From positions 310,001 through 374,000 of the forward strand of contig JADNRX010000017.1 of NCBI GenBank assembly GCA_015501595.1: DNA of 64,000 nucleotides, given 5' to 3'. The notes below the pieces were generated by a model. It worked only from the letters and a program-made list of their open reading frames with translations. It ran no database searches and was not told where the DNA came from. Position 1 is the stretch's first letter; each line of letters starts with the position of its first letter. Positions 17,895 to 55,920 of the stretch are shown here, piece after piece. The position numbers and the translations under genes are program-made. The stretch is from Hymenopellis radicata (lineage: Eukaryota > Basidiomycota > Agaricomycetes > Agaricales > Physalacriaceae).

Positions 17895-17977
17895 CCATGT
17901 CAGCAACAGTAAGACAGTCACACATAAAAAAAAGACGTACTCTCCATATCCTCCTTCCTCCCATGTGTTTCGTCCAC
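17895..17977 (-). pseudogene. 3' fragment of a CAP10 glycosyltransferase gene (inversion junction, left)
   Basis: Read on the minus strand, this piece matches the intact CAP10 gene at about 46,605-46,690. It contains the exon end encoding TKHMGGRR (W-K-K-H-M-G-R in the intact gene) and the following intron (TTTTTTATGTGTGACTGTCTTAC). The final CAP10 exon is missing. At 17,977/17,978 it abuts, in the same reading direction, the N-terminal half of a P450 gene. The adjoining base pattern is complementary to the junction at 41,983/41,984. Confidence 0.75.
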
Positions 17978-18501
17978 TGGGCCGTCAGACATCCCGATGC
18001 CATGAAGAGGTGAATATATTTCATGACTGCTTTAATGTGAGCTACTAGATAAATTGAACGGTTTGAAGGACATACCCGACGACGCATCTCGGGCGGCCGG
18101 AATAGACGTTGCCCTTGACTTTGAGAAGGTCGTGTGCCGCCTGAGCAGATGCAAGGACTTGACGAAGAGAATAATCACCGTTTAACACACTCGTTGTTGC
18201 AGGACCTACGAACGATCGTCTCACTCCCGAGGTAAAACAATACCACAGAGCCTAGTTCACAGGGTAAGCGATGTGTCTAGTTGGGCAGAAACGTTACGAT
18301 ACCAAATTTTTTGTGCCAATCGTGGAATGTTCTCCAACGATGCGTAGTCGGTAGTCGACCAAAACTACGCCACGAAGGTCCTGGTGGTACTTTCGCATTT
18401 CGTTGGAGGGTCCTCAGAATTAGGAGGCCAACAGCTATAGTGAAAAGGCCAAGTATGAAAGAGACGTAGAGGTTCAGTTCCAGTTGTCCGCGCATGACCA
18501 T
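17978..18501 (-). pseudogene. N-terminal half of cytochrome P450-b, cut at the inversion junction
   Basis: Starts at 18,501 with a short leader, a membrane anchor (LYVSFILGLFTIAVGLLIL), the hinge VPPGPSWRSFGRLP and [15 protein letters not shown], closely matching P450-a. After an intron, QAAHDLLKVKGNVYSGRPRC continues. The last exon stops in GMSDGP, just where P450-a has GPSFRKWKT, and the sequence then becomes CAP10. The missing rest of this P450 is at 41,984-43,808 on the plus strand. Split like this it cannot make a P450. Confidence 0.85.
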
Positions 18502-19006
18502 ATGGTACAGAACGAAGAGCAGTGTTGCCTTGACCGTGGGTCTGAGTGGTTAACGGCATTCCCACAAGCTTTGTGGACGTCTGCGTACACTGTCGGAGAA
18601 CGAGAAGCCCAGAAGACGCCTAAGAGTAGTGGTGATTCGTGAAGCCAGGCCCCACTTTCACGGGCGTGGTTCGGTCAATGCGGTGAGGAGAGGAAACCCA
18701 ATCATCGCGGGTGTACACAGCGCGACGCCACTCGATTTTCGTGTCATCCTATCTCCAGATACATGTAAACCGCTATCACAGCAATAATACAAGTACGCCT
18801 ACTCGATGATGGGGGCAGATGGTCGGGCGGAGAATGAATCTATGCGCCGTCCGCTATTTCAATTTGCCTGCCGGAACAGGGTCGGCGAGCACTTGGCCTC
18901 AGGCCACCACGCAAGACTTGACCGAGGTCGACTGCACCTTCATCTTCCTAGTATTGCCTACGCCACCCATTAGTATTATCCTTTGAATCATATCCTCAAA
19001 CTCGGG
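18502..19006. promoter_or_regulatory. intergenic between P450-b fragment and cyclin C
   Basis: About 500 bases between two diverging starts, holding the cyclin C promoter and the old promoter of P450-b. No coding frame with family features was found. Confidence 0.35.
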
Positions 19007-20312
19007 ATGGCAACAGATTTTTGGGCAAGCTCCCACTAGTAGGTACTCTTCACCTTTCTCACAGAATTTATAATCATCGGCAGTAAAAGATGGCTCGTCG
19101 ACCGCTCGACTCTGCGTCAAGCACGCACAGACGATCTCCAATACGTGGATGACCCGGAACATCTTGAATTTCTTGCAATCTATTTCGCCAACGGTGAGCA
19201 CGCTAGCGTTCCTTGGACCACGAACTGATCCTTTACTAGCTATCGCCAAGCTGGGCAAGAAGCTACAACTGCGGCAACGTGCTATTGCGACTGCAACAGT
19301 GTTCTTTCGACGATTTTACTTGAAGAATTCGTATTGTGAAACGGACCCTTTCCTGGTCATTTCAGCCTGCATTTACGTGGCGGCCAAGGCGGAGGAATCA
19401 CCTGTGCACATCAAGAATGTCGTAACAGAATCTCGGTCCCTCTTCAGTCGTATGCCCATTCCCATTCATCTTTCACCTTGTTTTACCACGTCGTCAGATC
19501 AATACAACGTCAAGCACTTCCCTTCTGACAACTCCAAGCTCGCAGAAGTCGAGTTCTACCTTGTAGATGACCTGGAGTGCGATCTAACCATCTTTCATCC
19601 CTACCGCACACTCATGGCGCTGTGTAAAAAGGAATCCGCAACACACGAAAACGAAGAAACCGAGGCTGGAGAGCTCGGTGTCGGAGTAGATTCTGACGAC
19701 TCATCCTTACACTTTGATGAAAAGCTGGAAATGTCGGAATCCGCACTCCAGATGGCGTGGTCCATCATCAACGATACATATCGTTCAAACCTCTGCCTTC
19801 TATACCCTCCGCATCTCATTGCCGTCGCGGCGATATACCTCACGCAAATCCTTCATCCGCCATCTAGGGAGATTATATCCACCCTCATCTCTTCCGAATC
19901 GGAAGCGAAGCAGCCCCAGCCGCGACGCTCCTCTCGGACACACACCGAGCAGAAGAAATCGCAGGATCCCATAGCCTTCTTAGCAGACCTGAACGTCTCT
20001 CTCCCGCTCATTGCCACCATATCGCAGGAGATTATATCCCTGTATGCATTGTGGGATAGGTATAAAGACGACAACCTTCCCGATGCCACCGTGTCTGCGC
20101 GTCCTTCTCCTGCTAGCAGTTCGAATAAATCTGCAAGTCATGCTGGGACCCCGAGGTCGGTCCAGGATGGCGCGGACGGGGTGACGCCGACGTTCTTGGG
20201 TGCGCTGGTGATGAAGATGAGGGAGGGCAGGCTCAGTGATATCTCACATCCACCGACAGCACGCCCTGCAGCTGTCAATAAGATGTTGGAGCGGGCGCAG
20301 GCTGCTGGTTAG
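19007..20312 (+). CDS. SSN8: cyclin C, Mediator CDK8-module subunit
   Basis: A cyclin-box protein that binds CDK8/Ssn3 in the kinase module of Mediator and regulates RNA polymerase II in the nucleus. Exons 19,007-19,038, 19,084-19,193 and from 19,240 join cleanly to give MATDFWASSHYKRWLVDR, then DDPEHLEFLAIYFANAIAKL. A further intron inside SLFSR...HQYNVKHFP must be removed. Cyclin-box hallmarks are RQRAIATATVFFRRFYLKNS, PFLVISACIYVAAKAEE and EVEFYLVDDLECDLTIFHPY. The second cyclin fold has INDTYRSNLCLLYPPHLIAVAAIY. A Ser/Pro-rich tail ends at 20,312. This is a conserved housekeeping gene standing among secondary-metabolism genes, and the inversion explains its place. Confidence in the family is high; the symbol follows the yeast name. 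Confidence 0.92.
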
Positions 20313-20527
20313 GTGTCCGTATTTTTGTTCAAAGACGATGCTCTTGAAGTGTTCAGCGTTGTCGAATTCTGATAGCTGCTCAGTATTTGACCGAAGTGTT
20401 CTTTTGCAAGACTACATTTCGTTGAATAAACTACAGGTAACGTATACCGGTCATCACTTTTGGTTCGTGCCACTTCATCACCTCGGATAGTTGAGCAGTG
20501 GTGTTTGCGTGCGTTTATTTTTATGTT

Positions 20528-20830
20528 CTGGACCTGCCTCACTAACGGATTGGTCACTAGATAAAGAGCACTGGGAACCCACCTTGGAAGCTCTGTTCGA
20601 TATCAACTGTCATTCGCCTCACCGTGCAGTGCTACACATTCAAGAAGCATGGTGTATTGACTGCCAAGGTCGCGGGGGTAGTGCCATTCGCAACGAAGAC
20701 GCGCTGTCAATTGAACACCCCGATTTATCGATGTCTCATCAAATCTGGACTGGTTGACTAGGCACAACTCATTTTGATCGACTCTGCTGGAGCGCGGTGG
20801 CGTACCACCAAGGACAACTGCGGGTCAAGT
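20528..20830 (+). pseudogene. alpha/beta-hydrolase relic, inverted partial copy
   Basis: A fragment matching the alpha/beta hydrolase at 29,910-31,251 but on the opposite strand. It begins inside an intron (CTAACGGATTGGTCAC is shared) and carries DKEHWEPTLEALFDIN and AVLHIQEAWCIDC. After a deletion it has LIKSGLVD, a stop, and a damaged nucleophile elbow where GHSAGA has become DSAGA. It has no start and no C-terminal half. Confidence 0.7.
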
Positions 20831-20903
20831 TCAAAAAATCCCTTATAACATTGTAAGGTTCACAGTCGTAAAAGTACAAATATTACAGTGGTGCGTAGGC
20901 AAT

Positions 20904-22236
20904 TTATTGAGGCAGGTACGACTTGATCTCTTCTTTCAGGCTTACCACCATGTTTTCTTTCCCATGCTTAGGTGCCCACCCCAACGCTCTGGAACGCTCG
21001 GCTTTAACACGAGCGTTGGTACCCAGATACGGCCACATTGGCTTGTAATACATGAGTAACCAACAATAACTGCCCAGGAAGGCACTTACACCGAAGAAAG
21101 CCGTTTTCTCCTCGTCTGTATAGGAGCTTGGTTTCGGGTTTGTACCCAACCCGAGTTCAACCAACGCCTTCGATATCTCCGTCGCGATCTCCTTCATCGT
21201 GTGTTCCCCCGTCTCAATGAAGTAATATCCATTCGCGCCATGTGCGGTCTCAGGGTTCTTGAGGATCGCCTTGAACAGTACAATGTAGAAATCAGCAGCT
21301 GCGATGACCCGTCAGCGTGAGCGTGGAAACTACGAGGCCCGGGAGAAAGAACCCACTGTCGTCCACGGATACGTTATTCCAGACATTGACACCATCTCCA
21401 ATCATGCCACCCTGCTTCCTGTGCATACTCGTTTTGACGATCGCAGGCAACTGGATGGAGTGGATGTTCTGAACGCCGGTATCTGCAACGACACCTGTAG
21501 CCAAGCCGTACACAGTCGGCGGCAGGACGAGGTAAGAACGGATGTAACCTGTGCTGATGTTAAGCAAAGGGCTGTCAGAACGCGTTGGAGCTTACCCTCT
21601 TTGTCTGCGTCCAGGATCGCCAAATCCATCTTCCTGTGGATCTGCGTTTCCGGCAATTTCGCGAACCGGTCGACGTCGAGATCGGAGAACACGGGGTAGT
21701 CGCCGTGCATACCCAAGGCGTTATCTTGAATTACGCCTAGCGGTAAAGGGCGTCAGAGAGGGAGAACGAAATGTTATGATGGATACGAACCTGTACCGGA
21801 GGTATGGATGAGAGCTGGAACAGAGCCGGTAGTTTGATTTCTCTTCTTCATGCCTTCCAATATGGCTCTGTTAGCGGCCTCGTCATCTGCATCTGCCTGG
21901 ATAGCATGGACATCAACTTCAATAGCAAGGACACGTCGATGATTTCGAACACTCACACAAGCGAAGACGACATCGGCTTTAGATGCTGCCTCGATCAAGA
22001 CATCAAGGTCTTTGTAGCTTCCAATGAGAGTGTTAATCCCAAGAGGTCGTAGCTTGTCAGCCTTTTCTACAGAGCGCACAAGAGCAGTGATAGTCGAGGG
22101 ATCCACGATAGTCAGCAGCCTGGAAAGAATAGAACCGCCGAGGTAGCCTGTAAGAATTGTAATATGAGCCAAGTTCAGTTTTGTCGAGGATACAGCTACC
22201 TGTGGCGCCAGTAAAGAAGATTTTAGGTGAAGACAT
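20904..22236 (-). CDS. NmrA-like / extended SDR NAD(P)-binding reductase
   Basis: An atypical extended short-chain reductase with one Rossmann domain. The ATG at 22,236 opens MSSPKIFFTGATG and continues over an intron to YLGGSILSRLL, giving the GxxGxxG dinucleotide site at residues ~10-15. Next are ALVRSVEKADKLRPLG; PALIHTSGTG; VFSDLDVDRFAKLPETQIHR; STGYIRSYLVLPPTVYG; GGMIGDGVNVWNNV; and YYFIETGEHTMKEIA near the C-terminus. Stop TAA is at 20,904-20,906. The sequence is typical of fungal proteins annotated as NAD-dependent epimerase or NmrA-like. The substrate is unknown. It lies beside P450-c on the same strand and may reduce a ketone or enal in the cluster, but a general metabolic role is possible. 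Confidence 0.82.
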
Positions 22237-23414
22237 GATGATAGACTGAAATATCGTTTGTCTGACATTCTCGCCGGCGTCTAAGCAAGTCGTAAGAATA
22301 GACCGGCACTGAATGTGATCCTCGCCGCAAGCATTGGCAGACTGAGACTACAATTGAGAAGTGTGGATCACCCGGTGCCTGGCTGATACTTAGGCGGTTT
22401 ACTACGAGCCACGTCGAGTCATCCTTGATGGGTACTTCAAGGTGTGCGGCCAGGAGATTCGAGATCTTGATATCGTACGAGGACTTTACAGCTACCGAGA
22501 AGAACGCGCAACCAGGTAGATGCGGAATGTACGTCTGTCGAGCAGTCGAAAATTCCCTAGCTAACAATTCTAGATTCCACCTCCGACTCGGAGATGGGTA
22601 AGATATCGGGTCTTCCGGGCGCCACTACAGGAAGGTTAGTAATGAGGTCGAGTGATTCTCAAATATTGTGTTATTAAACCTTGCAAGATGGGCGGTGACT
22701 TGAGCGCTCGGAAGACAAGCGCCCAGTCCTCTTGAGCGCATTGATCGTTAAGCCGCTCAGACGCGTATGGAGGCCGAGTCTGCGCCTATTGAAAGAAGCC
22801 TACAACCAGGGGCCGAGGTTGCTTGGTAAAATTTTGACGGTACAGTGTGTGCAGGTGGTTGTTTTCCAAGTTGTCTGCCGCCGCCGGCAGGTTCAGCACT
22901 TCATTCTCCGCAGACACGTGGTTGACGCCTTTTTTTTTTGTGGAACGTTTGGGATAAGAGGCGTACCTCACTCCACCATAATCGAGATTGGTTCGACAGC
23001 CTCGGACACGCAGAACTCCGTGTATATAAGCCGCATCTCTGCATGCTCTATATCACTTCTATATCCTTCTCACATTCCGTCAACTGCCTAGCTCAAGTCA
23101 TAACATCCGAGACGTGGTAGTCTCATTACGACGGAGGACCACATCCTCCACTCGCGCTTGCCAGTCTTCGAATCGTGTCCGTTGACCATCCCGCTTTGCT
23201 AGGCTCTATCTCCCTTCAAATGTCGTCCTCCCCCAGAGCTCCTCTGCTGTGATTCTGGCACGCTTATTCGATAGGACGGACAGGTAACTTTCAACGACGT
23301 GGATTGCATCAGTCTGAGGTGTCGCGGACGATGCTGCGCGGCCTAAATTGCACCACTCAATGGTTCTACTATTGACATTCCTGTATGCGTATTGTAAGCC
23401 TGAACACCGACATG
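22237..23414. other. gap of about 1.2 kb, no gene seen
   Basis: Both strands hold only short frames without recognisable motifs. The left part should contain the promoter of the NmrA-like gene and the right part the 3' end of P450-c. Poly-T runs lie near 22,930. Confidence 0.35.
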
Positions 23415-25445
23415 TCATTTGGGGACATCCGATAATAACTTCATTACTTCATCTGATACAACAGAGATTTCGCATTTGAACGGATACGGCTGGCTACATG
23501 ATCATCGAATCGGTAAGCTATACATTTAGAACATTTAGAACATCACTCTAACCTGAAAGCGGCATTCGTGTAGATGACCTCCGGTAGGACTGCGACACCA
23601 TCTGCATTGACACACGGGGCAATATTGCATGTCGCCAAGGTCGTAGCAATGGCAATGAAGACGGTACTGTGAGCTAGATGTGAGCCAGGGCATGACCTGC
23701 GTCCAAAGCCGAATGTGAAGTCGGTAGCGTTAGGCGGCTTTGGGTCCCTCAGGTAACGGTCCGGGTCAAACCTCATTGGCTCGACGTACCGGTGGTCGTC
23801 GTGGAGAAGCCCCCTGTCGGCAAGGTCACCGCGACGTCTACTCCCTAGTCAAGAACAAAACTGACCAGGCATTGGCGATAACTAGAGTCCTGGCGGGAAT
23901 GTGATAGCCGCGATACGTATCAGGTATCCGAGAGCAATGCCCCGCTGGACCTGTAAGGTGAGTTAAGAACGAGCAAAGCAATGTCTACGAACCGAGCGGC
24001 ACAGAAGGATTCCATCTGAAACACTCCTGGACGATCGCCGCCACGAACGGTAGGGAATTCTGGTCAGAAAGCTGTGGAAGTCTTTCCTTTCCAATGACGG
24101 TGAATATTTCCTGACGTCCTCTCCGTTGGATTTCTGGGTTCAGAACCATCGCCAAGAAGAACGACGAAATGACGCTGACGTTCTTACGATGAACATTCAT
24201 ATTGTTGTCAGTTGGTTCCTCTATGGCAGGCGGCCAACAGAGATCTCACAGTATCGGTCCCCGCTGTGTCGAGTCAATTGAGCGAAGAAATTAGAACGAG
24301 GAGAAGACTTTGTACCGCCATACATCTCGCCTGCTGTTGCTTTAAGAATACCACGCTCTTCCGGAGTCAGATCGGATTGTAAAGCGTTGGACACGAGCGA
24401 TGGATAATGGGTTCCGGATTTCTGATGTCTTGAGCGGTCAAGTCAAATTTGTGCACGCAAAGCCTACCATCTGGTTGACTATACGTTCGAAGGGCGTATC
24501 GTAAAACAGCTTGAGAGTAGCCCTAGACGCGGCAGCCGTTCGCTGAAAGGAAGCACCTGGAAACCACGAGGGCACAAATCTTACTGTTTGAAATGAGCGA
24601 GGCGTGCTGTTATTAACAGCGAAAGGTGACACGGACAGAAAGGCAGAGCATCGACCAGATATTTGTGAGTCGTCATGGCCGTACCCAAATATTGCATGAC
24701 CTCTTGTGCCATACTTACAAGGTCATCAGAGCTCTCGTCTGTGACGTGTCCATAGGCGATCATCATGATATTCGCGACCGCCATCCTGTAGATTGTGAGT
24801 GAAATCTGCGTGCATGTACCCGAAGCTGGAAGTGGCATTCACTTTCTAATATTTATCAGGAAGTGCTCTGGGCTCGCGATATTGGAAAAGCATAAGTTTT
24901 GCGCATTTCGTTCGAGTGTACGCCCATGACCGAACATGGCCCGAGGGTTGAGCTCGCTATGAAGTAGTTTTCGAGAAGTACGAACTGCCCTATCGTCGTT
25001 TCTAAAAGCGAGAGTACGTCCAAACCCGCATCTACCACGGCATTAGCAACTACTTACACTTGAGGACAATGAGCCCACTCACAACTCTCCCATAACACGA
25101 CGTGGCCTATCGGAGTATATAGAGGAGCGTTTCTCGAACAGATCCTGTACAGCCTCAATACTGTTGAGAATTAGAACGGGTCGCCCCAGAACGCGAAGAT
25201 AGACAAGATCTCCTGGGTTGTAATCAGTCTGCCTAGACTGGGGTAGCGAACGTAGCAACCAAACCGTAAGTGTCCTTCCATTCGGTAAAGCGAAGCCAGG
25301 ATCTCTGTACAGGCATGTCCCACCAATTCTCAATGATAGGCCAAGGCTGTGGACCAGGGGGGTACTTCTTCCATGATTGTCGCCACAGAAAGAATGAGAA
25401 AGAGAATATTACAAGGCAGGAAGGCAGAATTAAGACCGTCGACAT
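23415..25445 (-). CDS. cytochrome P450 (P450-c)
   Basis: A microsomal P450. The ATG at 25,445 is preferred since the anchor (STVLILPSCLVIFSFSFFLW) follows at once, then KKYPPGPQPWPIIENWW; an in-frame ATG is at 25,520. Next: GDLVYLRVLGRPVLIL and EKRSSIYSDRPRRVMG. The I-helix AGTDT is split by an intron before NVSVISSFFLAM. The K-helix motif is QECFRW, and the haem loop FGFGRRSCPG lies at about 23,690-23,720. The C-terminus needs one more intron joining NAAFS to QPYPFKCEISVV, with TGA at 23,415-23,417. The overall pattern is that of the CYP2-clan-like P450s that are very numerous in Agaricomycetes. It is divergent from P450-a. It is divergently arranged with the SDR gene to its right, which suggests joint control. 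Confidence 0.86.
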
Positions 25446-26055
25446 CTCTCGACGCAGACTTGAGATCTTCAGTGGGCGTGCTTGGATGGGGTTGATGAAG
25501 ATGGTAGAATTACTTGACATGAACCTGTGAACGAGAACGCGTTACGACAGGTGACAAGATGCCGTGACACGATCAAGTCACACGTGATGGCATCGTTTTC
25601 AAAACTTCCCCCGACTGCGGCAGGCCAACAAACGCCTTGAGCCAGCGGGCTCGTCTCGGTTCGTCAGAAGTACGAGGTTAAGCCGCGCTTAATTCAACTT
25701 GCAGTTGGTCCGCAGGACGGGATCTCATCACACAGCTTGTCCCAAATATAGGCCTGACCCCAGATTCTGAATACACCTCTACAATTTTCAGGAATTCTAA
25801 TCTTTTCCATCTTTGAACCCGATCTTTCTGTCGTAACGTATGTCTTCCCTGTCAAACACCCCCTCGAAATCCTGTCTTTCATGGTTCCTTCTTCGACTAT
25901 TCCGTTCACACTGGGAGGAAGTCAGGTCCAAGTTGCCTTCTTCCGAATCAAAAGATGGAATCTCGGAGCATTGATAAAGCGTGGGATATTGTCACTTGGT
26001 CTTCGGCATTCTCTGTCATACCGTCTCTCTCACAAGCTTACCATCGTACTAGGAC
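25446..26055. promoter_or_regulatory. divergent promoter between P450-c and the SDR gene
   Basis: About 610 bases between start codons that point away from each other. An E-box core CACGTG sits at 25,581-25,586 inside TCACACGTGA, a candidate bHLH binding site. Confidence 0.45.
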
Positions 26056-27230
26056 ATGTCGTGCCCAGTCGCCATCATCGCAGGTACCCTTCAATTGTAC
26101 AGGAATTCTCTAGTCTTTCTGATTGAAATCTGCTAGGTTTAGGGTCGGGGACAGGAACTGGAGCAGCGACAGCGTCAGTTCCATTACTTTGTGTATACTC
26201 CTGTGGCGAACCGAAATCCTTCGACAGACGCCTGTTCGCAAGAAAGGGCTACGCTATCGCCTTGATTTCCCGTAACTCGGAGACTCTCAATTCGGTTGCC
26301 CAAGAAATCACTGCAGCCGGGGCAAAGGTCGATTTCCCTCAGGTCCTCTGTTTGTTTTCTGACTGCACTCATTGGCGTAGGCTCTCATCTACCCCGTTGA
26401 TGTTTACAGTGCTGTCTCAATGACGGACGTATTTACTGCGATCAAGAAGGACTATCCTGCTCCACAGTATTGTTTTCGCATGGCTTTATGGAACACAGCT
26501 GGACACTTTGTGTGGAAAAAGTTCCTCGATGTCACCCCGCAGGACGTTCACTCCGTGATGCAAGAAGACGTGGAAGCTGGATTCGAGTTCTCCCGTCAGG
26601 CCATTCCGTTGTTCTTGGAGAACGATTTGGACTCTCAAGGCAGTCGCGGAGCTCTCTTATTCACCGGGGCTACGGCGAGTTTGAGAGGTAATATTATGAC
26701 CAGTACCTTTGCTGCAGGATGCTTTGCTCTTCGGGCTTTATCCCAGAGTCTCGCGAAAGAATTTTCCAAGTCTAATATCCATGTGAGACCACATCCACTC
26801 TTTCTTGATTCTGAAATCTGAAAATACTTCAGGTTATCCATGTCCGTCTTCTTTGCTATACTTTCCATACAGTAACTAATATTCGCCGTCTTCAGGCAAT
26901 CATCGATGGAGGTAAAGACTTACGGCAGTTTGTACTACATCTCACCATCTCCATAGAAATTCTGACAGACAACACCCGAAAACGGCACAACTACGATGCC
27001 GCATTCGAAGCAAATGAAGACGTTAGATTGGCGCCGGAAGACGTTGCTGAAGTACGTCGAGGAAGAACAACGGGTACCATACTGACATCTCATCAGACGT
27101 ACATGTACCTCACGTCCCAAAAGCGTTCTGCGTGGACTTGGGAACTTGACTGTGAGCTCATAACTCCATCCCGGTTGTACTTGAGTACTGATAGCATCTG
27201 GCAGTGCGTCCTTCCCACGAGAAGTGGTAA
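26056..27230 (+). CDS. SDR-family oxidoreductase with altered catalytic motif
   Basis: A classical-size short-chain dehydrogenase. Exon 1 (MSCPVAIIAG) joins over an intron to LGSGTGTGAATA, giving the dinucleotide-binding glycines. ALISRNSETLNSVAQEITAA follows. The segment LLFTGATASLRGN precedes STFAAGCFALRALSQSLAKE, the usual YxxxK site. Here the tyrosine is phenylalanine, as in many relatives of this subfamily, and the lysine is also replaced, by cysteine (codon TGC). After three small introns, HAIIDGEILTD and LAPEDVAE lead to WTWELDLRPSHEKW and TAA at 27,228-27,230. This C-terminal joint is formed by an intron ending at CTGGCAG and matches the family end very well. Loss of the lysine makes ordinary dehydrogenase activity doubtful. 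It may bind ligand or catalyse a non-redox step. Confidence 0.85.
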
Positions 27231-27345
27231 ATTGGGTTGGCGTCTCGATTTAGTATGCGTGACATTGATAATAAAATGTGTTTGCTATCGTCGTCTCCCA
27301 TTTATACCAAGTCGGGCCTGAAGCAGCACGGAAAGTCTGTCTTCG

Positions 27346-29709: not shown

Positions 29710-29909
29710 TAAATGCCACTAGCAAGTCTGTAGTCCTAGTATTATGAATGTATCTGCTCTTCCATAGGCCAACGTCCGCTGAACGTCGTATAATTGCGAA
29801 TGAAAGATCACACGAGTCATTCAGTGCGGTGCTGGCATGGTACACGCCGTTCTCGAACAAGAAAATTCACCATAATTCACCATAAAGGACGTAAAGAAGT
29901 ACTCAGTGC

Positions 29910-31251
29910 TTATAATCTTGATTGTGGTACACTGCGAGTCATTATAGCCCATAAGCCATAGGCCAACCTCTCAGGGACTTCCTCGACAACCTGTGTCTCC
30001 GATGTTAGTATGCCTGCATCAATCAGTGATGTATACGGACCATATGCCCTGCTTGAGGAATCCGAGTCACGGAGGCGACTTGAGGAATACCTTTTGGACT
30101 ACAGATTTCGTTCTGAATGAACGTCGGTCTTGAGAATTCAAACGTTAGCATGTAAACAGAACAGCTTACAAGTCCTTACGAATGGTCCGCTTGAGTACCG
30201 AAAACGACATGTACAGGAAGAAGAGGGCAGATCTCAGAAAGGCGATCTAGCACCTCGAACTGAACATCTGAATGTCGATACGCCGTTGCTTGCGCATCCT
30301 TTGTGCAAGATAACGTTACCGTCTTATCGATAGGTGGGGCCTGTGATCGAGGATGTCGCAGACCATACGTCTAAAGCATTCGCCGTGAGTTGATAATCAT
30401 GAAAGGAACATGTTCCTACCACGTGAAGGTCCAAAACCCGTGGATCCCACCTGCGCCACGGATTTCGCGACGACATCCATTTCCGGGCCTCTTCCCGGTT
30501 CTCCCAAACATCTCGCTGTGACTGGTTAAGCAAGATCATTCTATCCGTAAGCAGTCGCGCTGCGGGATTGCTATCCATCAGGTTTCGTGTGATCATCACT
30601 GGCTCGACCAGTATGATTTTATCGATGCGAGGATCAAGGACAGGTAGGGTAGCCAGAACGCTAAGAGGGACTCAGTTTCACACATGAGGAGAGCGGGATT
30701 CGATGAACTGACATGGACGCTGCCCCAGCAGAGTGGCCGATCAGAATGAGTCGTGCCTGCGCGCTAAAGTCGACTAGTCCAGATTTGATGAGAATATCGA
30801 AGGTCCGCGCATAGTCGTACGTGGCTGGCTGATGCTTCATCTCACGAGCCAGTGCGGGAAATTTGACTCACAGATAAATCGGGGTCTTGTTAACAGCGCG
30901 TCTTCGTTGAGAATGGCACTCTTCCCGTGATCTTGGCAGTCGATACACCATGCTTCTTGAATGTGCAGCACTGCATGCTGAGACGGTTGACAGTTGATAT
31001 CAAACAGAGCTTCTAAAGTGGGTTCCCAGTGCTCTTTATCTGGTGACCAATCCGTTAGTAGGCTACGACTAGAGAGAGGAGGTCCAAAACATACGATATC
31101 CCAAGGCATGGGCAAAAAGAAGGATTACTCGAGGTCCTGAGATGTTGTCCAAGCTCTCAGAAGGGACGGAGCTGCGGTACCGTTTTGCTAAGATCGAGAG
31201 GTCACCTCTATCAGGAAGGACGAATTCGTCCACTGTGAGGAAGGCACCCAT
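29910..31251 (-). CDS. alpha/beta hydrolase-fold protein
   Basis: A serine-hydrolase-fold enzyme (esterase, lipase or lactonase type). Start at 31,251: MGAFLTVDEFVLPDRGDLS. Later SGPRVILLFAHALG is the oxyanion-hole strand, then DKEHWEPTLEALFDIN. The nucleophile elbow is LILIGHSAGAASM (about 30,740). DPRIDKIILVEPVMI follows. The acid-bearing strand is PVHVVFGTQADHS, and after two introns the catalytic His lies in PQAGHMVVEEVPERLA. TAA is at 29,910-29,912. All three catalytic elements (Ser, Asp, His) are visible. It resembles fungal proteins of the toxin-biosynthesis type alpha/beta hydrolases found in metabolite clusters. A partial inverted copy lies at 20,528-20,830. It shares a 332-base promoter with the DFR-like gene. 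Confidence 0.85.
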
Positions 31252-31583
31252 AACGGTTCACCTCAGAGTCAGTGCCCCACTTAGTTTCATTTATCGTCGA
31301 GCATTCAAACACCTGTGAAAAATTCACCTCGGAGAGTGAGTCGCGTTTACCCGCCGAAAGACATGGGACCTCAAGATGGCAATCATAGCATTCTTCCTTC
31401 CTTCGGGTCCAAATACTTACGTACGGCGTCTACAGAGTTGCCGCCTGTTGCCGGAAGACTGCCAAAATATATTTGTGACGCGTGACGGAGGACCAGATTT
31501 TGAATGTTTCTACAGCAGTCCGAAAGTAGCCGTTTACATATATACTAACGAACGATGCTACTCACTGCAAACATCAATCTATC
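31252..31583. promoter_or_regulatory. divergent promoter of hydrolase and DFR-like genes
   Basis: A 332-base region between diverging starts. A TATA-like CATATATAC at 31,537-31,545 lies about 40 bases before the ATG of the DFR-like gene. The short shared region suggests the two genes are expressed together. Confidence 0.5.
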
Positions 31584-32954
31584 ATGGCCAAGTCCCTCAT
31601 CCTAGTAACTGTCGGCGTCCATCGTTGCTCGTCTTGCACTCATCTCGTTCTCAGGTAACCGGCGCCTCAGGATTTGTCGCGTCCTACATTATTTCTCTGC
31701 TTCTGAAGGAAGGATACGCTGTTCGGGGGTTTGATTACGCAGTCTATCGTTGAGAATCCTCTCATTAATCGAATACAGAACCGTCCGTGCGGGCAAGATC
31801 GAGTCCCTCAAGTCTGCACCCATTAGTCAAAATCCCGACTTCGCGCTCGTGGAAGTGAACGACATCTCGAAAGATGATCTCACCAGCGTTATGCAGGGTA
31901 CAATATACTTCTCTCTCAGCAGTCGTCACTCTAATTTTCCTATTAGGTGTCGACGCCGTCATTCACGCCGCTTCCCCTCTGGCTGGCCAAGCCACACCAG
32001 AAGTTATCATCTCGGTAAGCAACTGTTGCCATTGGGTGCAGCCATTGATGGCGGCCGCGCCTTTCAGACCTCCCAGGACGGAAATTTGAATGTGCTCAAG
32101 ACTGCCGCCAAAGTTGGAATCACCAAAGTCGTCATTACGAGCAGCTGGGGAACAACCATTGATCGTAAGTCCTGTCTTTATTTCATCAAGTGTTGTGTGC
32201 TCAAATTCTCTTAAAGCGGACTTGGCTAAGACCTACGCCGGAATAACTCTCACTCGGAAAGGTGAATCCACCAAGTGGCGCAAATCGTGCTGGTTCCTCT
32301 GACACTCTTTCAGACTGGGGTTCCGTCACGGCGGAGGACGTCTTCAATAGCGAACACGACCCTCTTTGGGTCTATATCGCTAGCAAGATTCTGGCTGAGA
32401 AGGCTGCATGGAAATTTGTTGAAGAGAACACGGTTATTGATCTGGCGACAGGTAATTCAACAGTCCATTCTTTTAGAAGTCATCATTCATGGTGGTTCTT
32501 AGTGAATCCACCTTTCATCTACGGCCCTCTCAACGACCAGTTTCCGGTTCCGGAGCCCGCGCGGCTTGGTGCTAATGTCATGGTGTACAGTCTGATCAAC
32601 GGCGAACAAGGTCGTCCACTTCCCATGCAGCTTACACCTCTCTACACTGATGTACGCGATGTCGCCAAGGCCCACGTTCGAGCGCTCAAGGCTTCGCCTG
32701 AGGTCGGAAACAAAAGATTCCTGATTTCCGCAGGATTCTTCACCTGGAAGCAGGCGGCGGAGTATCTGCAGAAGACAAAGCCCGAGTTAGCGAGCAGATT
32801 GCCGTCCACCGCCGATGCTGCTGGGCTTCCTGGCCCGGTTTCTGACACTGATGTCAGCCTTGCCAAAGAGCTCCTAGGGCTTGATGAGTATATCGGCTGG
32901 GAACAGATGATTACGGACACTGTCACTTCCTTTATTCGCGTCGAGAAGAACTAG
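31584..32954 (+). CDS. DFR-like extended SDR (NAD(P)H-dependent ketone/aldehyde reductase)
   Basis: A dihydroflavonol-4-reductase/GRE2-like reductase. Exon 1 encodes MAKSLIL; an intron GTAACT...CTCAG leads to VTGASGFVASYII, the dinucleotide site. Then VRAGKIESLKSAPIS, DAVIHAASPLAGQ, GITKVVITSSWGT, and the catalytic YIASKILAEKAAW with Tyr and Lys in YxxxK. The substrate-binding part has NPPFIYGPLNDQ, TPLYTDVRDVAKAHVRAL and a C-terminus ending at TAG 32,952-32,954. The length after splicing (~345 residues) is normal for the family. Members reduce aldehydes and ketones with NADPH. In this cluster a product of the A-T-R reductase next door would be a fitting substrate, which is inference from position. 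Confidence 0.88.
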
Positions 32955-33324
32955 GTAAAATAGTTGAGAGAACCAAAGTTTGTTTTATTCCGTGTACTTT
33001 AGGCTGACAATTGAATGGGTCTATGTCAAGTATTACGCGCTGTCAGATGTTCAAAATGTTTTCTCTTTAGCGCTTGCGCTCATTCGTGATGAGATAAGTA
33101 AGCGTGGGAAAGATCTGGAGGATGCCGTGATCGCGACCGTAAACGGACCGATTGACTCGGCTCGTCGCAACGCTCACATTCGCAGGATTCGATTCCGAAG
33201 CCCAATGTATTGCGTTGGCTGTTTGGTGTGTGCGTGCGTTCTGAAATGATGTGCGTGGCACTGTTAAAAACCGTAACCTGATTCTCTTCAATCCGCACGT
33301 TGGACTGTTCCCCGCACGACTCCA
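32955..33324. promoter_or_regulatory. upstream region of the A-T-R reductase
   Basis: A 370-base spacer between two plus-strand genes. No coding feature is seen, and it presumably carries the promoter of the reductase gene. Confidence 0.35.
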
Positions 33325-36300
33325 ATGCGCCTTCTGCCAATTCCGCCGCGTACTCAGGCCCTGTCGACGACAGCTTTCGTTCCACCGCCTCTAGATGGCT
33401 CACTGGACCTACAAGAAGTATTCGACTGGCATCTTGAGCACAACCCCGACCATCGCCTCTTTGTGTTCTATGACCATTCTGCGGGGGCCCTGAGGTATTT
33501 GACCTGGTCCGAAACTGTCAAGGCTGTCCACAGAGCTGTCCGGCTCATTCGTGAGCAGGTCTGTTGGACTTCGGAGCCGTCGAGCTTGCCTGTCGTCGGT
33601 ATCCTTGCTGTATCTGGTATGCTTTTGATTTGCGGGCGTAGGACTCACATTCTCATTTTGGCCCCCCAGACACGGTCACGTACTTCACCATGCTGCTGAG
33701 CGTGTTGCGTTCCAATTGCGTCGTTTTTCCAATTTCTATCCGGAATTCGCCCACTGCCATCGCCCATCTCCTCCAGCAAGTGCGCGTGAAATATCTTCTC
33801 GTCAGCGGCGATCGTGCCATGCAACAGTTGGCAATACAGAGTTTCTCTTTACTCGAGAAGGATTATACCATCCCGAAAGTCCTGCCGTTTCCCAGTTTCC
33901 AGGATCTGTACCTCTCGACACATAGTGTCAATCCTCAGGATATACCGTACGAACGGGGCGGCCCAGACCAGATCGTTCTCTACATACATTCGTCGGGTTC
34001 GCTGATGCTCACATTTCAGTGTTGGTCTTTGAGCTGACATGTAAGTAGGATCTACGGCCCACCCCAAACCGATAGGATACACCAATCTGAACAATCTCCA
34101 GTCAATGCATATTCCTTGGTACGGAGAGGTGGATCTTACCAGCCGTGTGATATCTGTCCATGCAGTAGCCATGTTTCACGTCATGGGTGTTGTGCAACTC
34201 CCATCTGCAGTATGTGCTCTCGACTTGCCACAATCATGTATTCAGAATCAAAAAGGCTTCCTGTGGATATACGCTAGCCGTCTTCGATCCGGCGAAACCC
34301 ACACCTGCACCAACCCCTGCGACAGTTTTCGCGGAGCTCCAGGCTACAAATTGCGACTATGTTGTCTGCGTTCCCGCTTTCCCAGAAGTACTTCGATTTT
34401 CGTCAGTCGTTGTCGCTGTGCTAAACTGCTTGTAGGCCTGGTCCAAAGATGCCGATAAAGTGAGGTGGCTCTCTTCATCCTCAGGAGTAGTCAGTGTCAC
34501 TCGTTTCTCTTACCCCGCCCCTTGCGTTAACGACAGAAAAGATCTGTGGCGGAGGTGGGTTCAACTACGATGTAGGGCAGTATCTGCGTTCACAGGGCGT
34601 CGAAATAATTCCTTTGTACGGATCGTGAGTTGATCACGGACATTCCTCTCTGTGTCGCTGAGGTACGCTCGCAGGACCGAAACTGGCGCCATCAGTGTTT
34701 TCATGCCAGAGGCTTGTCCCGAATTCGAATATTTCAGGCTGGCGGCCTACATCTCTCCCCATTTCATTGCTCAAGGGCACGACGATGCCTTCGAACTTGT
34801 CTTAAAGGTACTGTCACCGTGTTTTTCGATGAAGCTGTATTCAATGCGGAGTTAGACCGGTACCGCAGTTTCACCTGTCGTCCTTAATACGAAGGTGGAC
34901 AACGTCGGTGCATATGCAACATCCGATCTCTTGCAGCCGCATCCCACTCGGCCCGGTTTTTGGCGCGTTTTCGGACGCCGCGATGACCAGATAATGCATA
35001 GCACTGGTGAAAAGGTAATGACTCGCAGCATATATGTTATTTAATACTGAGTTCTCTGCAGACAAATGCGGGTCCTCTAGGTTCGTTTCTTTCTAACTCA
35101 CACCTCTGCCTAGTGCTCAACCTGACGTAGAGAGCATTCTGAACCAGGATCGCAACGTCCTGAGTTGTGTCATCTTTGGGCGTGGAAAGCCTCAAGCAGG
35201 TGACAATTAGCACAGCGCCTATTCTCGGGCCTTCACGTTGACAACGTCTAACAGGCGTGCTTGTTGATCCTATCCCAACTTTGTCGGTCGACCCCACCGA
35301 TATTGCCGCATTGGAAAATTTCCGAACAAAGATTTGGTGTGCCTTCCCTTCTGCCTATCCACGTATCTCACCTAATTCATCGTCAAGGCCGACGGTACAG
35401 CGAATGAATGAATATGCACCACAACATTCCAGGATATTCAAAGAGGTCCGATCTCACCCTAGACTTAGATCTATCCACGCTGAATATACGGTCTCCCTTC
35501 GACAGATGATCATAGTGGCGTCGCCATCGAAACCTTTCACTTATACCGCCAAGAATACTGCTCGTAGATCAGCAGTAATCGCCGACTATGAAGAAGAAAT
35601 CGAAGCTGTTTACCTGGCGCCCGCGCATATAGTACCACCAACTGAATGGACCGAGGAGTCAGCGCTTATCTTTGTTCGCTCCGTGATTTTTTCCATCATG
35701 GACAAGGCTCTGCCTGACGAGGTTGATATATTCGAGCATGGATGTGACAGGTGACGGTATTTCTTGCACAGCGATTGGTTCCGTCTGAACTACCATTAGT
35801 TTGCAAGCGAGCCGGATCCTCAATACGTTATCGGAATCATTGGCGAACTCTCTGGGCAAACACACCAGCACACTCGATCGCGACTTGGTTTATGTACACC
35901 CCTCTACCACGCGATTAGCAACTGCTATCATCGAGCACATCGCCGGCGTCAGTAGGGCAATTGTCGGGGACGAAAGGCTTTCCTTGATGCGCGCACTCTT
36001 AGAAGCTGAAAGTCTTTCTATGTGTTCTCCATCGAGGCGGATTGCCGACGTCGTTCCCGCTCCTCTAGAGGAGCACGTTGTCCTGATCACCGGAACCACA
36101 GGCGCACTGGGATCATACATCCTGTCTGAACTGATTAAAGACGCCACCGTTAAAACCATTTACGCTCTCAACCGTGCTTCCGGAGAGCAGGAATTGAACG
36201 AACGTCAGCGACGTGCTTTCGAGTCTCGTGGTCTCAACCCTTTGCTTCTTCATACCGGCAAAGTTCTGCTTCTTGAAGGCACTCTTGCCTCTGAGCAGTT

Positions 36301-37358
36301 GGGTCTGTCACAAGAGGTGTATTCCGCCGTGAGTGTATTGAATTGTCATTGTGATAATCTCTCTGAGTATGGGACAGATCAAAAGCAGTCTTACACACAT
36401 CATACACAATGGTGCGCATGTCCCAGATCGACTAAGTATTGCCAGCCGTCTTATTATAGCGTGTCAGCTTGGCCGGTTAACTTTCGGCATACCTTGTTGT
36501 CGTTCGAGAGCTCTATTAGAGGCGTGCGGAATCTCATCAATCTTGCCCTTACTTCTCCTCTGGATGTTAGACCGAAGTTGACCTTCATTAGCTCGGTCTC
36601 CGTAATGCAGAGTAAGATTTTCATTTTGTTCTTCAAACCATCTCACAAGTTTCAATAGACGATTTTCACGAACAGCCTATACCCGAGAGGTCAGCGAATA
36701 TTGTCGAAGCCGTAGGCACAGGCTATTCAGAAAGCAAATGGGTCGCTGAGCATTTGTTCGAGAAAGCGTCTTCGTTGGGGCTAGCCGTAGATGTCATCCG
36801 CGCTGGACAGCTGTGTGGAGGTGTTAATGGATGTTGGAATGCACGGGAATGGATCCCCGCCATGATTTGCAGCGCCAAGATCTTGGGATACATTCCCGAT
36901 GTCGAAAAGGTATGGAATCTCAACTACAAAGCTATTCGTCCGGTTTGACATCAAAATAGGACATCGCCCTCCTGCGAGTAAGTGACGCAGGGAAGGCTGT
37001 CAACGATTACCGGATCTCACAACCGAACGCTGGGCTTCGTTTTCTTCACCTAGTACAGCCACGCCCACTATCATGGTCCTCGCTTGCACAAGCGATTGCG
37101 AGCATCTTAAACGTTTCTTTGGTGGATTACGGCGCATGGCTCGCTTGTCTAGCAGCATGCCCTGTCCAAGTTCCGGCTAGCCATCTTCTCGGATTTTACG
37201 AGCGGGACTTCGACCCCTCCGCTCAGGATGCGTTCGGAATGGCGCGATTTGATTGCAGCCTTGCTTTGGCGAATTCCGACAGTTTGCGCGCTTGCGAGTC
37301 GGACCTCACTGGAGATGTGGGCAAGTGGATAGAGTCGTGGGAAGCAGGGCGAGAATAG
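33325..37358 (+). CDS. adenylate-forming reductase (A-T-R, NRPS-like)
   Basis: A multidomain enzyme that adenylates a carboxylic acid, loads it on a phosphopantetheine arm and reduces it with NADPH to the aldehyde or alcohol. A domain: N-terminal FVPPPLDGSLDLQEVF; the AMP-binding core A3 appears after splicing as HSSGSTAHPKPIGYTN (33,987-34,085); A5 as YGSTETGAISVF over an intron near 34,620-34,690. T domain: the arm-bearing Ser in FEHGCDSLQASRILNTL at about 35,750-35,830. R domain: HVVLITGTTGALGSYILSEL for NADPH binding, and GTGYSESKWVAEHL with the catalytic Tyr and Lys near 36,720-36,760. TAG is at 37,356-37,358. After splicing it is about 1,050-1,100 residues, normal for basidiomycete reductases of this type. 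The substrate is not readable from sequence. The two desaturases suggest an unsaturated fatty acid, but many such enzymes take amino or aryl acids. Confidence 0.87.
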
Positions 37359-37447
37359 TCAGGCCTTCAGGGAGTGTAGTTTTCTATGGATGGAGTATTA
37401 CGCCTTCGTTGGTACTTAGCGCTCTGAAGCGGCCAGCGGCCCAAATT

Positions 37448-37478
37448 GCCTCGATATTAGAACACGTCGGCCAGGCAC
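37448..37478 (+). repeat. 31-bp inverted repeat, left copy
   Basis: A 31-base block, including GATATTAGAACACGTCGG, that recurs perfectly in inverted orientation at 41,363-41,393. The pair bounds about 3.9 kb of minisatellites and relic DNA just downstream of the A-T-R gene. It may be the terminal repeat of a mobile element or foldback structure. Outside the block both copies have similar but imperfect GGCC-rich flanks. I found no clear target duplication. Confidence 0.7.
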
Positions 37479-37489
37479 GTGCACGGCCG

Positions 37490-37740
37490 CGGCCATACCA
37501 TCCATGCCCCCCGGCCATACCATCCATGCCCCCCGGCCATACCATCCATGCCCCCCGGCCATACCATCCATGCCCCCCTGCCATACCATCCATGCTCCCC
37601 GGCCATACCATGCATCGCCCTCGGCCATACCGTGCATCGCCCCCGGCCATTCCATGCGTGGGCGGGCGGCCACACCATGCTTCGCGGCGGCCAATTCATG
37701 CATCGTATCAGCCCTAGCATGCATCGCCGCCGCCGAAACA
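37490..37740 (+). repeat. 22-bp minisatellite
   Basis: Tandem copies of a 22-base unit of the form GGCCATACCATCCATGCCCC plus two C. About four to five are nearly perfect (37,490-37,600), and they then diverge to units with CCATGCATCG up to about 37,740. The tract is open in several frames on both strands because the unit has no stops. The resulting Pro/His/Met-rich or Gly/Met/Trp-rich peptides are artefacts. Confidence 0.9.
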
Positions 37741-37989
37741 TGCATTCCCCTCTATCCCGCCATGCATCCTCTTCCTACATACCACGCATCGCCACCCAGG
37801 ACATCACGCATCATCGCTATCACATCCATGCCTCTTCATGGCCCGTACCATCCATCGTTCTGCCCACATTCCATGCATCGGAAACTCCCTCCATCATCCC
37901 CGTTTGTACTTACATTCCGTAGAGTCCCATCAGACTCACATTACCGTATTTGTACTCCCATTACTACCTTTCAGCCCCGTCTTTACCTT

Positions 37990-38740
37990 GTGCGCCTAGT
38001 GTCTTTCTGTCATTTTTCGCGGTATCACTCACTCTAATACGGAATAGTTCTTTTGCTACAGCCAAACTAACTTGTGGTAGCACAAAAGAAAGAAAACTAG
38101 CCTGTCTTCCTTCAATATCCTGCGATGCCTGCTCGAGATTATGCTCGATGTCCATCGTAAGTATACCGCAGCGTCTCCGAGATCGTCAACCGGAAGTACA
38201 GTGCCACAACGCCAGGGACACATCCCAGCCCAATCAGGATGCGCCACACCTCGTCGACGTGTTCGTAAATGTTGACGGCGTGGCCTAGTATGGCGGATAT
38301 GGACTGGGAAAAGCCTTAGTGAAAGAAGATGTTGGTAGGAAATGACAATTCACACACATTCATTTCCGACCCACAACATCAGCAAGCCATCCAAAGAGAA
38401 GTTGTCCGAGGAGAATTCCGATTGGAGTAGTGAGTTTGATACTGAGCTTGTGATCTAGTCAACAGATTTACATGGGGTGCATAAGGACACAGCAGGACCT
38501 ACCATCGCCACCATAGACATAGCCCAGCATCACGGAGGCAATGTTGATTGCGAAGATGTCATAGCTGGGGAGCGTAAATCAGATAGAACACAGTAATCGC
38601 GTGATGACGAAAACACGCACGAATCGCCTCATCGATACTCAACACCAGTGATATACCAGCGAGTTGTACTGGCACGCTTCCCATCTTGACACTCTGATTC
38701 TATCAAACGATGAGTGAGTAAAATATATGTAAATGAAACT
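37990..38740 (-). pseudogene. PHO84-type inorganic phosphate transporter relic
   Basis: Minus-strand fragments in family order. YDIFAINIASVMLGYVYGG (about 38,565-38,505) is the first transmembrane helix. TTPIGILLGQLLFGWLADVVGRK (about 38,450-38,385) covers the MFS signature. After a jump, NIYEHVDEVWRILIGLGC and VVALYFRLTISETLRYT (about 38,290-38,165) precede MDIEHNLEQASQDIE. The middle of the transporter, including the GGDYPLSA region, and the whole C-terminal half are missing. It is a non-functional remnant of a major-facilitator phosphate:H+ symporter gene. Confidence 0.7.
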
Positions 38741-38974
38741 CTAAACCAACCTACTGACATCGATGTGTGTAAGGGAGCCGTGGCCGCTGCCTCGCGATGC
38801 TCGCAACTCCCTTCTTACTCAAGCCCAAAGGTCAACGAATATGTCTTCATGTAGGAACAAGGTCCTGTCAGATCGGATCAGTTATATTCAGTTTGGAAGA
38901 GAACACGATTCACTTACGATAATGTGAAACCACTACGATTCGTAGTATGATGGGGCTGGTGCTAGCCTCCGCAG

Positions 38975-39375
38975 TTACACAGTCAGATCATAATTCCAGT
39001 ATACCACCAACTGTAAGTCCGACGATGTCTAGCGGGCCCACCGCTACTTCCAGAACCACAACGACAGCATCAGTTGTTTGCAAATGTCTCGCCAACTCCT
39101 TGTTCGTAGTTGTGCCAGTATGCGATTGTCTAAAGGTCTGGGGTAAGTTTATGGAGAAACTAGCCAAGTGGAATCTCACCAGGTAAAAGCGGTATGACGA
39201 CTCATACAGAATATCTTCATCGTTCCGAACATCCCGCTAACCATCACTCCGAGACGTCCAATGGGCCCGCTGTTGGCCCCAGGAGTAGAACGACGACATA
39301 GGCATCATTCTTAAGCATCCCGTCGACCTCTTGAATGTTGCTGTGGGCACTGGGCGTCGTCTAAAGGAAATATTT
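38975..39375 (-). repeat. two diverged tandem units of unknown origin
   Basis: Two segments, about 38,985-39,150 and 39,205-39,370, align on the minus strand. Each starts CTTTAGAC and carries a GGGCCC core, with translated echoes VVVVLEVAVGPLD and YVVVLLLGPTAGPLD. I do not recognise the protein. Their divergence suggests an old duplication inside the relic region. Confidence 0.4.
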
Positions 39376-39839
39376 TTAATTCATGAAGGAATTGATCAAA
39401 TTGATAAACCTTACCAGACGAGAAACACAATCTCGGCGAGGCGACCTACAGCCTATAGACGTCATCTTGACAGTAATATCCTGCAAGCCATCGGTAGTCC
39501 ACGAAGTTGCTGTCGAAAACCTAACATTGCGACATGTCTCGAGGGCGGAATCATACCCAGCCGTCGCGTGTACGGTGTCGTCGCCGTATTGACAGAACAA
39601 TATGTCTGAATGACCGTCCAGGCATCGACGCCACACGTCAATTGAGGCAGGAACACAATCTTAAAAGGAAATTTAACACTGCGTGGTTCGGACCCAAAAT
39701 GAGCGGCGTTGTAACGAAAATACAGCGAATGAGAGTTGAGAGACGTTGCAGATGGTGTCGAGAACACCGTCCATGTAGTCCGAGAAGTCCTCGCCAGTCG
39801 GTTCAGAAGAAAAGAACTGTCGCAACGGTTGGTGAACAC

Positions 39840-40165
39840 ATGATCGATGCATGGTACAAAGTGGCCGCAATGGTTGGTGAAGCGCGATGGATGCATGATA
39901 TGGCGCGTCACAATGGTTGGTGAAGGGAGGAAGGATGCATGGTATGGCGCGTCACGATGGTTGGTGAAAGGCGAACGATGCATGGAATGAGGTGTCACGA
40001 TGGTTGGCGAAGAGAGGAAGGATGCATGGTATTCCGCATCACGATGATTGGCGAAGGCGCGATGGATGCATGGTACGGCGCGTCACGATGGTTGGTGAAG
40101 GGCGAACGATGCATGGTATGAGGTGTCGCGATGATTGGTGAAGGAGCGATGGATGCGGGGAAAGC
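39840..40165 (+). repeat. minisatellite with GATGCATGGTATG / CACGATGGTTGGTGAAG units
   Basis: About seven imperfect copies of a roughly 45-base unit made of GATGGATGCATGGTATGGCG and a CACGATGGTTGGTGAAGG block. The ATGCATGG core is the reverse complement of the CCATGCAT core of the left minisatellite at 37,490-37,740. The two arrays are therefore inverted relative to each other. Confidence 0.8.
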
Positions 40166-40329
40166 CTGGGCACATTCATCAATCGTGGATGCCTGCAGTA
40201 ACATAAGTAGTTCGAGTTGTAGAGAAATGCGAAGGTGCGGGGTAGTGGTACAAAGAAGATTGAAGGGGCTTCCTTGACAGCAAAGTCCTATGTCGTGCTC
40301 AGAGCGCCGGCGGGCATATACTGGACATG

Positions 40330-41340
40330 GCGCAGAAGCTGAGGCAATGCATGACGGAGCGGTGCGACATGCATGCCTTGGTGGATGGCGATGGATGGTT
40401 TGGCCGACCGTGATTCATGGATTGGCCGACGCGATGGATGGATTGGCCGACAGCAATGCATGGCATGGCCGGGGACCATGCATGGTTTGGCCGTCAATGT
40501 CAGACGGCGGGCGCCTCTGCCTACGAGAGGCAAATTCGGGTTTTTCAAAGGAAAACAAGGACACTCAGAGGCATCCACCAGAGGCAACACAGAGGCAATC
40601 CCAGAGGCAAGTGCGAAGCAGTGCCAAGAGCAACTTCGGTCGATCGGCTCCGAGGCGATTCGGTGCAACGTGGGGCAGGTACGTTCCTTCCTTTCCTTCT
40701 CATCATCACCATGCTCCTCGTCGAGCTCGTCGAGCAGCCACATCACCAAGCCTTTATCATATACAGCCACAGTCTTCTCTCGGGACCTTGGTCCTCTCCC
40801 GGCGTGGTGTTACTCTTTCGCTTGCCCAAGCCTCCGAACCTGTCATAATCATCCATGTAGACTGCAATACCCCTACGTACTATGTTCATACTGGGCGCGG
40901 ACGCCGTAGAAACTACCCTTATCAGAACATCCATGAAATACATGTCATATTGAAGTTGTGAAGCACCATTACCTGGAAACATTGCTCACGAACTTTCCCC
41001 GACGCTGAACACGATTCTTAATGCTCGGAGTTCGTGTTCCAAGATTGACAGCGATAACGCCACACTGGGCAACAAAGGTGAAGAAAGAAATGAAGGGGAC
41101 TGAGAATTCCATTGACTACAGACAGACATGTACGCGTACTCAGCGCGTACTCGATACTAGCAGGTGACCGTAATATTCGCCACGTTGAACCAAGATCACT
41201 GGGCGCGTTCCAGGCTGGCTTTTGGTCCGTTTTGGATTAGCCGGGCTGTCTTTGGTCGCCTCTTGGTCGCCTCTGCCTCTGCCTCCGAGTTTGCCTCCGG
41301 AGGCGCCTCTAGAGGCAGAGGCGCCGGCGGTCGGACGTTC
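40330..41340 (+). repeat. repeat tract: GATTGGCCGA units and inverted AGAGGC clusters
   Basis: From 40,340 to 40,495 there are tandem imperfect GATGGATGGTTTGGCCGACC-type units. From 40,510 to 40,605 there are at least six CAGAGGCAA motifs. Near 41,255-41,330 the complementary GCCTCTGCCTC motifs are clustered, so the 40.5-41.33 kb part is bordered by inverted AGAGGC clusters. The DNA between (40,680-41,200) has no gene I can support. Confidence 0.55.
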
Positions 41341-41362
41341 TCGTTTGGCCGGGTGCCTGACG

Positions 41363-41393
41363 GTGCCTGGCCGACGTGTTCTAATATCGAGGC
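41363..41393 (-). repeat. 31-bp inverted repeat, right copy
   Basis: Exact reverse complement of 37,448-37,478. It lies about 145 bases before the CAP10 relic. Confidence 0.7.
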
Positions 41394-41537
41394 GATCTCC
41401 AGCGGCCGAAGGCTTGCGCACGTGTACGGAATATTTCGGTCGATGTTGTCTGATCATCGATCATCCCTCGCCTCGTCGTTCATGGCTACAGATTTCTGAG
41501 CGAGCTCGCACTAGTGAGTGTTCTCCGCCGTTCGCAC

Positions 41538-41983
41538 GGAATAGGTGAAGGCAACGTCTGGAAGCAATACGGCGCACATGTTTCCTGTCGCGTACATCGT
41601 AAGAACTCGGCCGACACTGGGCGTACAAGTACCTTCTGGACCTCGATGGTATGGGATACTCTGGTCGGTTCATGGCGTTCTTGGCTAGTGATTAGGTACC
41701 CGTGAAGAGCACTGTGCATGATGAATACTTCTCGGATATACAACCTTGGTACGCTTTTCTATTCCGCATCTTCGTTTTCTCATCCTCTCACAGGGTGCAC
41801 TTCATCCCACTTTCCACTACGTACAAGGAGATATACATTATCTTCTCGTACTTTTCTGGTCCTCCGCCTCCAGTCATTAGTAAATAAGGCTGCTGGTTCG
41901 GAGGATGAAACGCTGTCCCTCGCACCTCTCACTTCGCAAGACGGTGATAACCGATTGCGGCAAATAGCGCGCGCTGGGAAGCA
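41538..41983 (+). pseudogene. CAP10 glycosyltransferase relic (inversion junction, right)
   Basis: A shortened copy of the CAP10 gene at 44,594-46,772. The first ~40 bases match about 45,545-45,585, the next ~25 match about 45,670-45,695, and from about 41,607 it follows 46,230-46,603. Two internal deletions (about 85 and 540 bases) have thus occurred. TGGGATACTCTGGTCGGTTCATGG is shared, but soon after it a TCG codon has become TAG (41,693-41,695), and a 3-base loss and a frame change follow. At 41,983/41,984 the CAP10 sequence (...GCTGGGAAGCA) turns abruptly into P450 sequence (CATTATCGAAAGTGG...). It is the partner of the 3' CAP10 piece at 17,895-17,977. Confidence 0.85.
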
Positions 41984-55590: not shown

Positions 55591-55661
55591 TTGTTTGAAA
55601 TGTAAAGCAAAACTTGAAATCTTGAAAATGGAACTATGGAATGCAATAAACAAATACTTAC

Positions 55662-55856: not shown

Positions 55857-55920
55857 CTGGCGCAGCTCGCTCGCTCTCCCGCCATTGTCGGCGCGTCCCG
55901 GACAATCATGCCCTCTTGGC

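Follow-up and report, generated by a model that had tools for sequence, protein, structure and literature searches.

The stretch of DNA analysed here, called the window throughout, covers 64,000 nucleotides (positions 310001-374000 of the 383,866-bp contig C485) of a 75.5-Mb assembly in 1,405 contigs from Hymenopellis radicata, a member of the Physalacriaceae. This fungus lives on wood and litter and is described in PMC8480192 as degrading decayed wood; for the genomes of that study as a whole, the paper gives Illumina and PacBio data and assembly by Velvet, AllPathsLG or Falcon. PMC10847261, in which GCA_015501595.1 is the reference, covers 18 re-sequenced strains that may represent another species, as their reads map in part only, and PMC9961838 gives two monokaryon assemblies of Oudemansiella raphanipes (GWHBRAH00000000 and GWHBRAI00000000). 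At the centre of the locus lie the pieces of a cytochrome gene, P450-b, and of a glycosyltransferase-like sequence, CAP10-b, together with one intact paralogue of each, P450-a and CAP10-a (Table 1).

Table 1. Features of the locus, in window coordinates
Feature	Position	Strand	Basis
P450-a, intact paralogue used as ruler; 16 exons, 515 aa	6854..9194	-	gene model
CAP10-b, terminal 92 bp of what remains, lying outside the segment	17886..17977	-	alignment to CAP10-a
Left joint, CAP10-b 3' remnant / P450-b N half	17977..17978	.	paralogue alignment
Proposed inverted segment, 24,006 bp	17978..41983	.	reciprocal joints, aligned to both rulers
P450-b N half (124 aa), with exons 1-3 and 49 nt from the start of exon 4; part of P0121 in the public annotation	17978..18501	-	P450-a comparison; Pfam p450 profile 1-77
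CAP10-b, main piece at 41605-41983, preceded by two small scraps	41543..41983	+	alignment to CAP10-a
Right joint, CAP10-b remnant / P450-b C half	41983..41984	.	paralogue alignment
P450-b C half (395 aa), from the final 21 nt of exon 4 through the stop; P0001 in the public annotation	41984..43808	+	P450-a comparison; Pfam p450 profile 101-460
CAP10-a, intact glycosyltransferase family 90 gene used as ruler; 5 exons, 620 aa	44711..46772	+	gene model; PF05686

The gene models of P450-a and P450-b were made in this analysis, and their introns were set by comparing the two genes. The two parts of P450-b exon 4, one ending at 17978 on the minus strand and the other starting at 41984 on the plus strand, add up to 70 nt, exactly as in P450-a. 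The remaining exons are equal in length in the two genes, apart from exon 1 and the 111-nt exon, each of which is 6 bp longer in P450-b. Neither half of P450-b contains a stop or a frameshift, and the introns are bounded by GT-AG; two donors of the C half, GTCAAT and GTTCGT, are weak by the standard of fungal introns. Both halves match the PF00067 profile, with 28.4 bits for the N half and 190.4 bits for the C half (cut-off 22.8). Independently of our models, the public gene set carries the two halves as separate proteins. P0001 (363 aa) begins at an internal methionine and is the same as our modelled C half from its start to its end, while P0121 (145 aa) is a chimaera in which the N half is read past the left joint and the end is spliced differently from our own model. 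Past this joint the reading frame of the N half runs for 19 more residues, which are not in the CAP10 frame. P0001 and P0121 are most likely the halves of one broken gene. As predicted from these models, P450-b would now be knocked out, since its short N-terminal product would lack the haem-binding end, while the C half would be cut off from promoter and membrane anchor.

Among 103 sequences (P450-a and 102 full-length matches), the two nearest to each half of P450-b were P450-a and the protein P0002 of Mucidula mucida. The pieces could in principle be leftovers of separate partial duplications that were never joined in one P450-b gene, since other duplicated stretches lie nearby (53344-55575 with 56894-59198) and CAP10-b is itself a partial copy. 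Two gene copies would then have to be cut at complementary positions without gap or overlap, and both halves have the same nearest relatives, so that we find this origin scarcely credible in comparison with the breakage of a single P450-b gene.

The second ruler, CAP10-a, is recognised by PF05686 with 61.6 bits (cut-off 24). CAP10-b is 90% identical to it, but comprises only 379 bp adjoining the right joint and 92 bp adjoining the left one, plus small scraps of the 2-kb gene. Its lesions further include an in-frame stop, a 7-bp insertion and a 3-bp deletion of a tryptophan codon, besides the large parts that are missing; with this truncation, the internal gaps, the stop and the frameshift, no open reading frame crosses the conserved CAP10/GT90 domain in CAP10-b. 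Past its 3' end, a 46-bp scrap (17819-17864) has its counterpart at 47937-47982, some 1.2 kb downstream of CAP10-a, so that CAP10-b looks like what is left of an old duplication of larger extent. Given this decay and the clean state of P450-b, CAP10-b had most likely already lost its function when the flip occurred. As CAP10-b is a decayed fragment, one gene would have been broken by the inversion, not two.

Using P450-a and CAP10-a as two independent paralogue maps, we located both joints to the base, at exactly the positions proposed by an earlier sequence-only reading. That reading had also described the joints as reciprocal, and both maps bear this out. On the P450 side, the match of the N piece to P450-a runs as far as the GGCCC of the latter, and the C piece picks up in register; on the CAP10 side, the pieces end and begin at positions 2005/2006 of the aligned CAP10-a stretch, corresponding to 46604/46605 in the window. 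The number of bases lost, gained or duplicated is therefore 0 bp at both joints (49 + 21 = 70 nt in P450-b; 46604/46605 in CAP10-a). A single inversion of 17978-41983 is enough to account for the order and strand in which the four pieces lie, as had been suggested. Two further claims needed adjustment. Both breakpoints had been placed inside genes, which is right for P450-b, where exon 4 is split, but the CAP10 breakpoint sits in a decayed partial copy. A 2-bp microhomology had been invoked as well: the shared CA is present, but it is not above chance, since 2 bp or more would match there at random with a probability of 0.156. The two paralogue maps thus give strong support to one 24-kb inversion whose joints are exact and reciprocal.

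The segment and its surroundings contain several repeats and genes. A repetitive element at 37445-41396 is bounded by terminal inverted repeats (37445-37478 and 41363-41396, 97%) and holds internal tandem repeats; related stretches are found on many contigs, for example C777, C468, C757 and C999. Nested in it is a 0.85-kb repeat (40493-41342) that lies between two copies of GTTTGGCC, a hAT-like target duplication of 8 bp. Copies of this repeat that are 92-96% alike occur on at least 5 other contigs. An inverted repeat of about 190 bp (20536-20729 and 30873-31063, 88% alike) lies within the segment with its arms 10 kb apart, and no further copy was seen in the assembly among the matches listed. 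The 3' part of a cyclin-like gene is found at 19589-20324, with an 86% identical copy at C905:10693-11394. Between 26381 and 36948, also inside the segment, open reading frames match short-chain dehydrogenase, AMP-binding domains and NAD_binding_4; together with the two P450s and desaturase-like open reading frames, they could form a biosynthetic neighbourhood. Outside the segment, the duplicated stretches mentioned above form a direct duplication of about 2.3 kb that is 83% identical and is present in haplotig C942 too.

We considered how the turned order could have arisen. Comparison of the window with itself (E 1e-6 or better) and inspection by eye of 20 bp on each side revealed no repeat linking the two joints. 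Recombination between inverted repeats was rejected as the cause, no inverted repeats being found at the joints at the same E value. An inversion made by a transposon was rejected too: among elements with terminal repeats, none has an end at a joint, and the closest terminal repeat that was detected stops at 41396, which leaves 587 bp to the right joint. The simplest path would be end joining of two breaks. Double-strand breaks would have occurred in exon 4 of P450-b and in the dead CAP10 fragment 24 kb off, and the broken ends would have been rejoined with the middle turned, with 0 bases lost and at most 2 bp of shared sequence used. Both this repair path and the earlier gene order are deduced from the present sequence. 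Nearby elements may possibly have contributed to the breakage. We also weighed two or more separate events, such as two transpositions or translocations. Mobile elements are present in the segment, one of them with its end 587 bp short of the right joint, and there are repeats at a distance of about 490 bp from the left one; but none of the element ends found coincides with either joint, and multiple events would have to reuse both cut points exactly, whereas one turn without loss explains both. Such a succession of events appears very improbable, and we regard a single end-joined two-break inversion as very likely to lie behind both joints.

The turned order might instead reflect a contig misjoined during assembly rather than a turned chromosome. 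The assembly holds a second haplotype on either side of the inversion region. Haplotig C1201 matches window positions 1038-12298 piecewise, ends at 12298, short of the left joint, and continues to match C485 farther left of the window; haplotig C942 (30,000 of its 31,424 bases compared) matches 46296-63816 piecewise and starts beyond the right joint. Their main blocks are 96-98% identical to the window, and two small blocks of C1201 reach 86% and 92%. No second haplotype of 12298-46296 was found: a piecewise search over 12000-46600 returned the region's own copy, paralogues and repeats (best 40 of 48 and best 40 of 76 candidates scored in two pieces), which makes the case for its absence from the assembly strong but not complete. 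With parts of two haplotypes in the assembly, no second one seen over the joints, and CAP10-b 90% like the nearby CAP10-a, assembly is more difficult here than in an average region. Misjoins driven by repeats fall in shared sequence, however, whereas these joints each separate unlike sequences and are complementary to the base, and the window contains no N. Because the joints are reciprocal and lie outside any shared repeat, we consider a mis-assembly unlikely and infer that the turned order is real in the cell. To the left of the window, C1201:7968-8833 matches C485:307502-308366 and C1201:8830-9561 matches C485:302241-302987, both as minus-strand matches in reversed order, between flanking matches on the plus strand. 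Judging by match positions alone, the haplotypes seem to differ there by another inversion, some 6 kb long (C485:302241-308366), with an inner stretch missing in C1201.

In order to place the inversion in time, we compared P450-b with its relatives. The N and C parts of P0002 each share 94% identity with P450-a, compared to 65% (N) and 82% (C) with P450-b, which suggests that the duplication of P450-a and P450-b is older than the split of Hymenopellis and Mucidula. In the search for a relative with an unbroken P450-b, one Mucidula protein, P0002, came up among the 120 matches listed of 848, and it is the partner of P450-a, not of P450-b. P450-a and P450-b are 65% identical over the N half and 83% over the C half, with dN/dS of 0.18 and 0.05 respectively, at dS values near saturation (1.4 and 2.1). 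A further set of 26 proteins (P0003-P0028, several from one species) was used for comparison. P450-a was closer than P450-b to 15 of the 26 over the N part and to 3 of the 26 over the C part; mean identities for P450-a and P450-b were 48.9% and 47.2% (N) and 58.8% and 60.6% (C). The C half of P450-b thus shows no release from constraint. The higher dN/dS and lower mean identity of the N half point to at most a slight loss of constraint, and N parts diverge more in the other proteins as well. P450-b was probably functional until recently.

The distance between haplotypes was estimated from flank blocks with at least 1,000 columns and at least 95% identity, which left 4 blocks with 24,971 aligned sites, 444 substitutions and 112 indels. 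Substitution divergence was 1.0-2.3% across these four blocks, a low estimate because blocks of greater divergence were left aside. Had P450-b been released from constraint ever since the haplotypes split, 3.3 disabling changes would be expected in it (chance of none 0.04), and 0 were seen; leaving aside 1-bp indels, which may be sequencing errors, the expectation is 1.8 and the chance of none 0.16. The lack of any stop or frameshift in the P450-b halves indicates that the flip is probably recent, although such dating is weak. By the same weak, suggestive test, it is probably younger than the haplotype split. We tentatively raise the possibility, to which we would not give even chances, that the flip is present in only one nucleus of the dikaryon and arose after the haplotypes parted, the sister nucleus keeping a whole P450-b and the knock-out being caught early, near the place where the haplotypes seem to differ by the other inversion.

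Simple two-break inversions repaired by end joining are characterized by two reciprocal joints, a turned segment, no loss and little or no shared sequence. All these features are alike in the present case, with a turned segment, reciprocal joints, 0 bp of change and only CA shared; what sets it apart is that two local paralogue rulers make both joints exact. In mushrooms, it can be difficult to resolve inversion joints at the level of single bases after they have decayed or when they fall within repeats. Here both are readable and the event is roughly datable because P450-a and CAP10-a lie close by to serve as rulers. Another mushroom, Flammulina velutipes, belongs to the same family, Physalacriaceae, and is reported to have undergone recent inversions (van Peer et al. 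2011, cited in PMC9961838); those are at its mating-type loci, whereas no mating-type family was detected among the open reading frames scanned, which cover part of the window. In humans, PMC4591017 describes a polymorphic inversion of 415 kb by which a gene is disrupted and a fusion transcript produced. It resembles the present segment in cutting a gene and giving a chimaeric product, a predicted one here, but it is much larger and has been shown to be polymorphic. No published account of the 17978-41983 inversion was found among the matches listed from the open-licence PMC literature. Inversions that split genes are already known as a type of event, and the value of this one is its clean record. 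Were the flip restricted to a single nucleus, the locus would offer a natural experiment on the sheltering of broken genes in a dikaryon.
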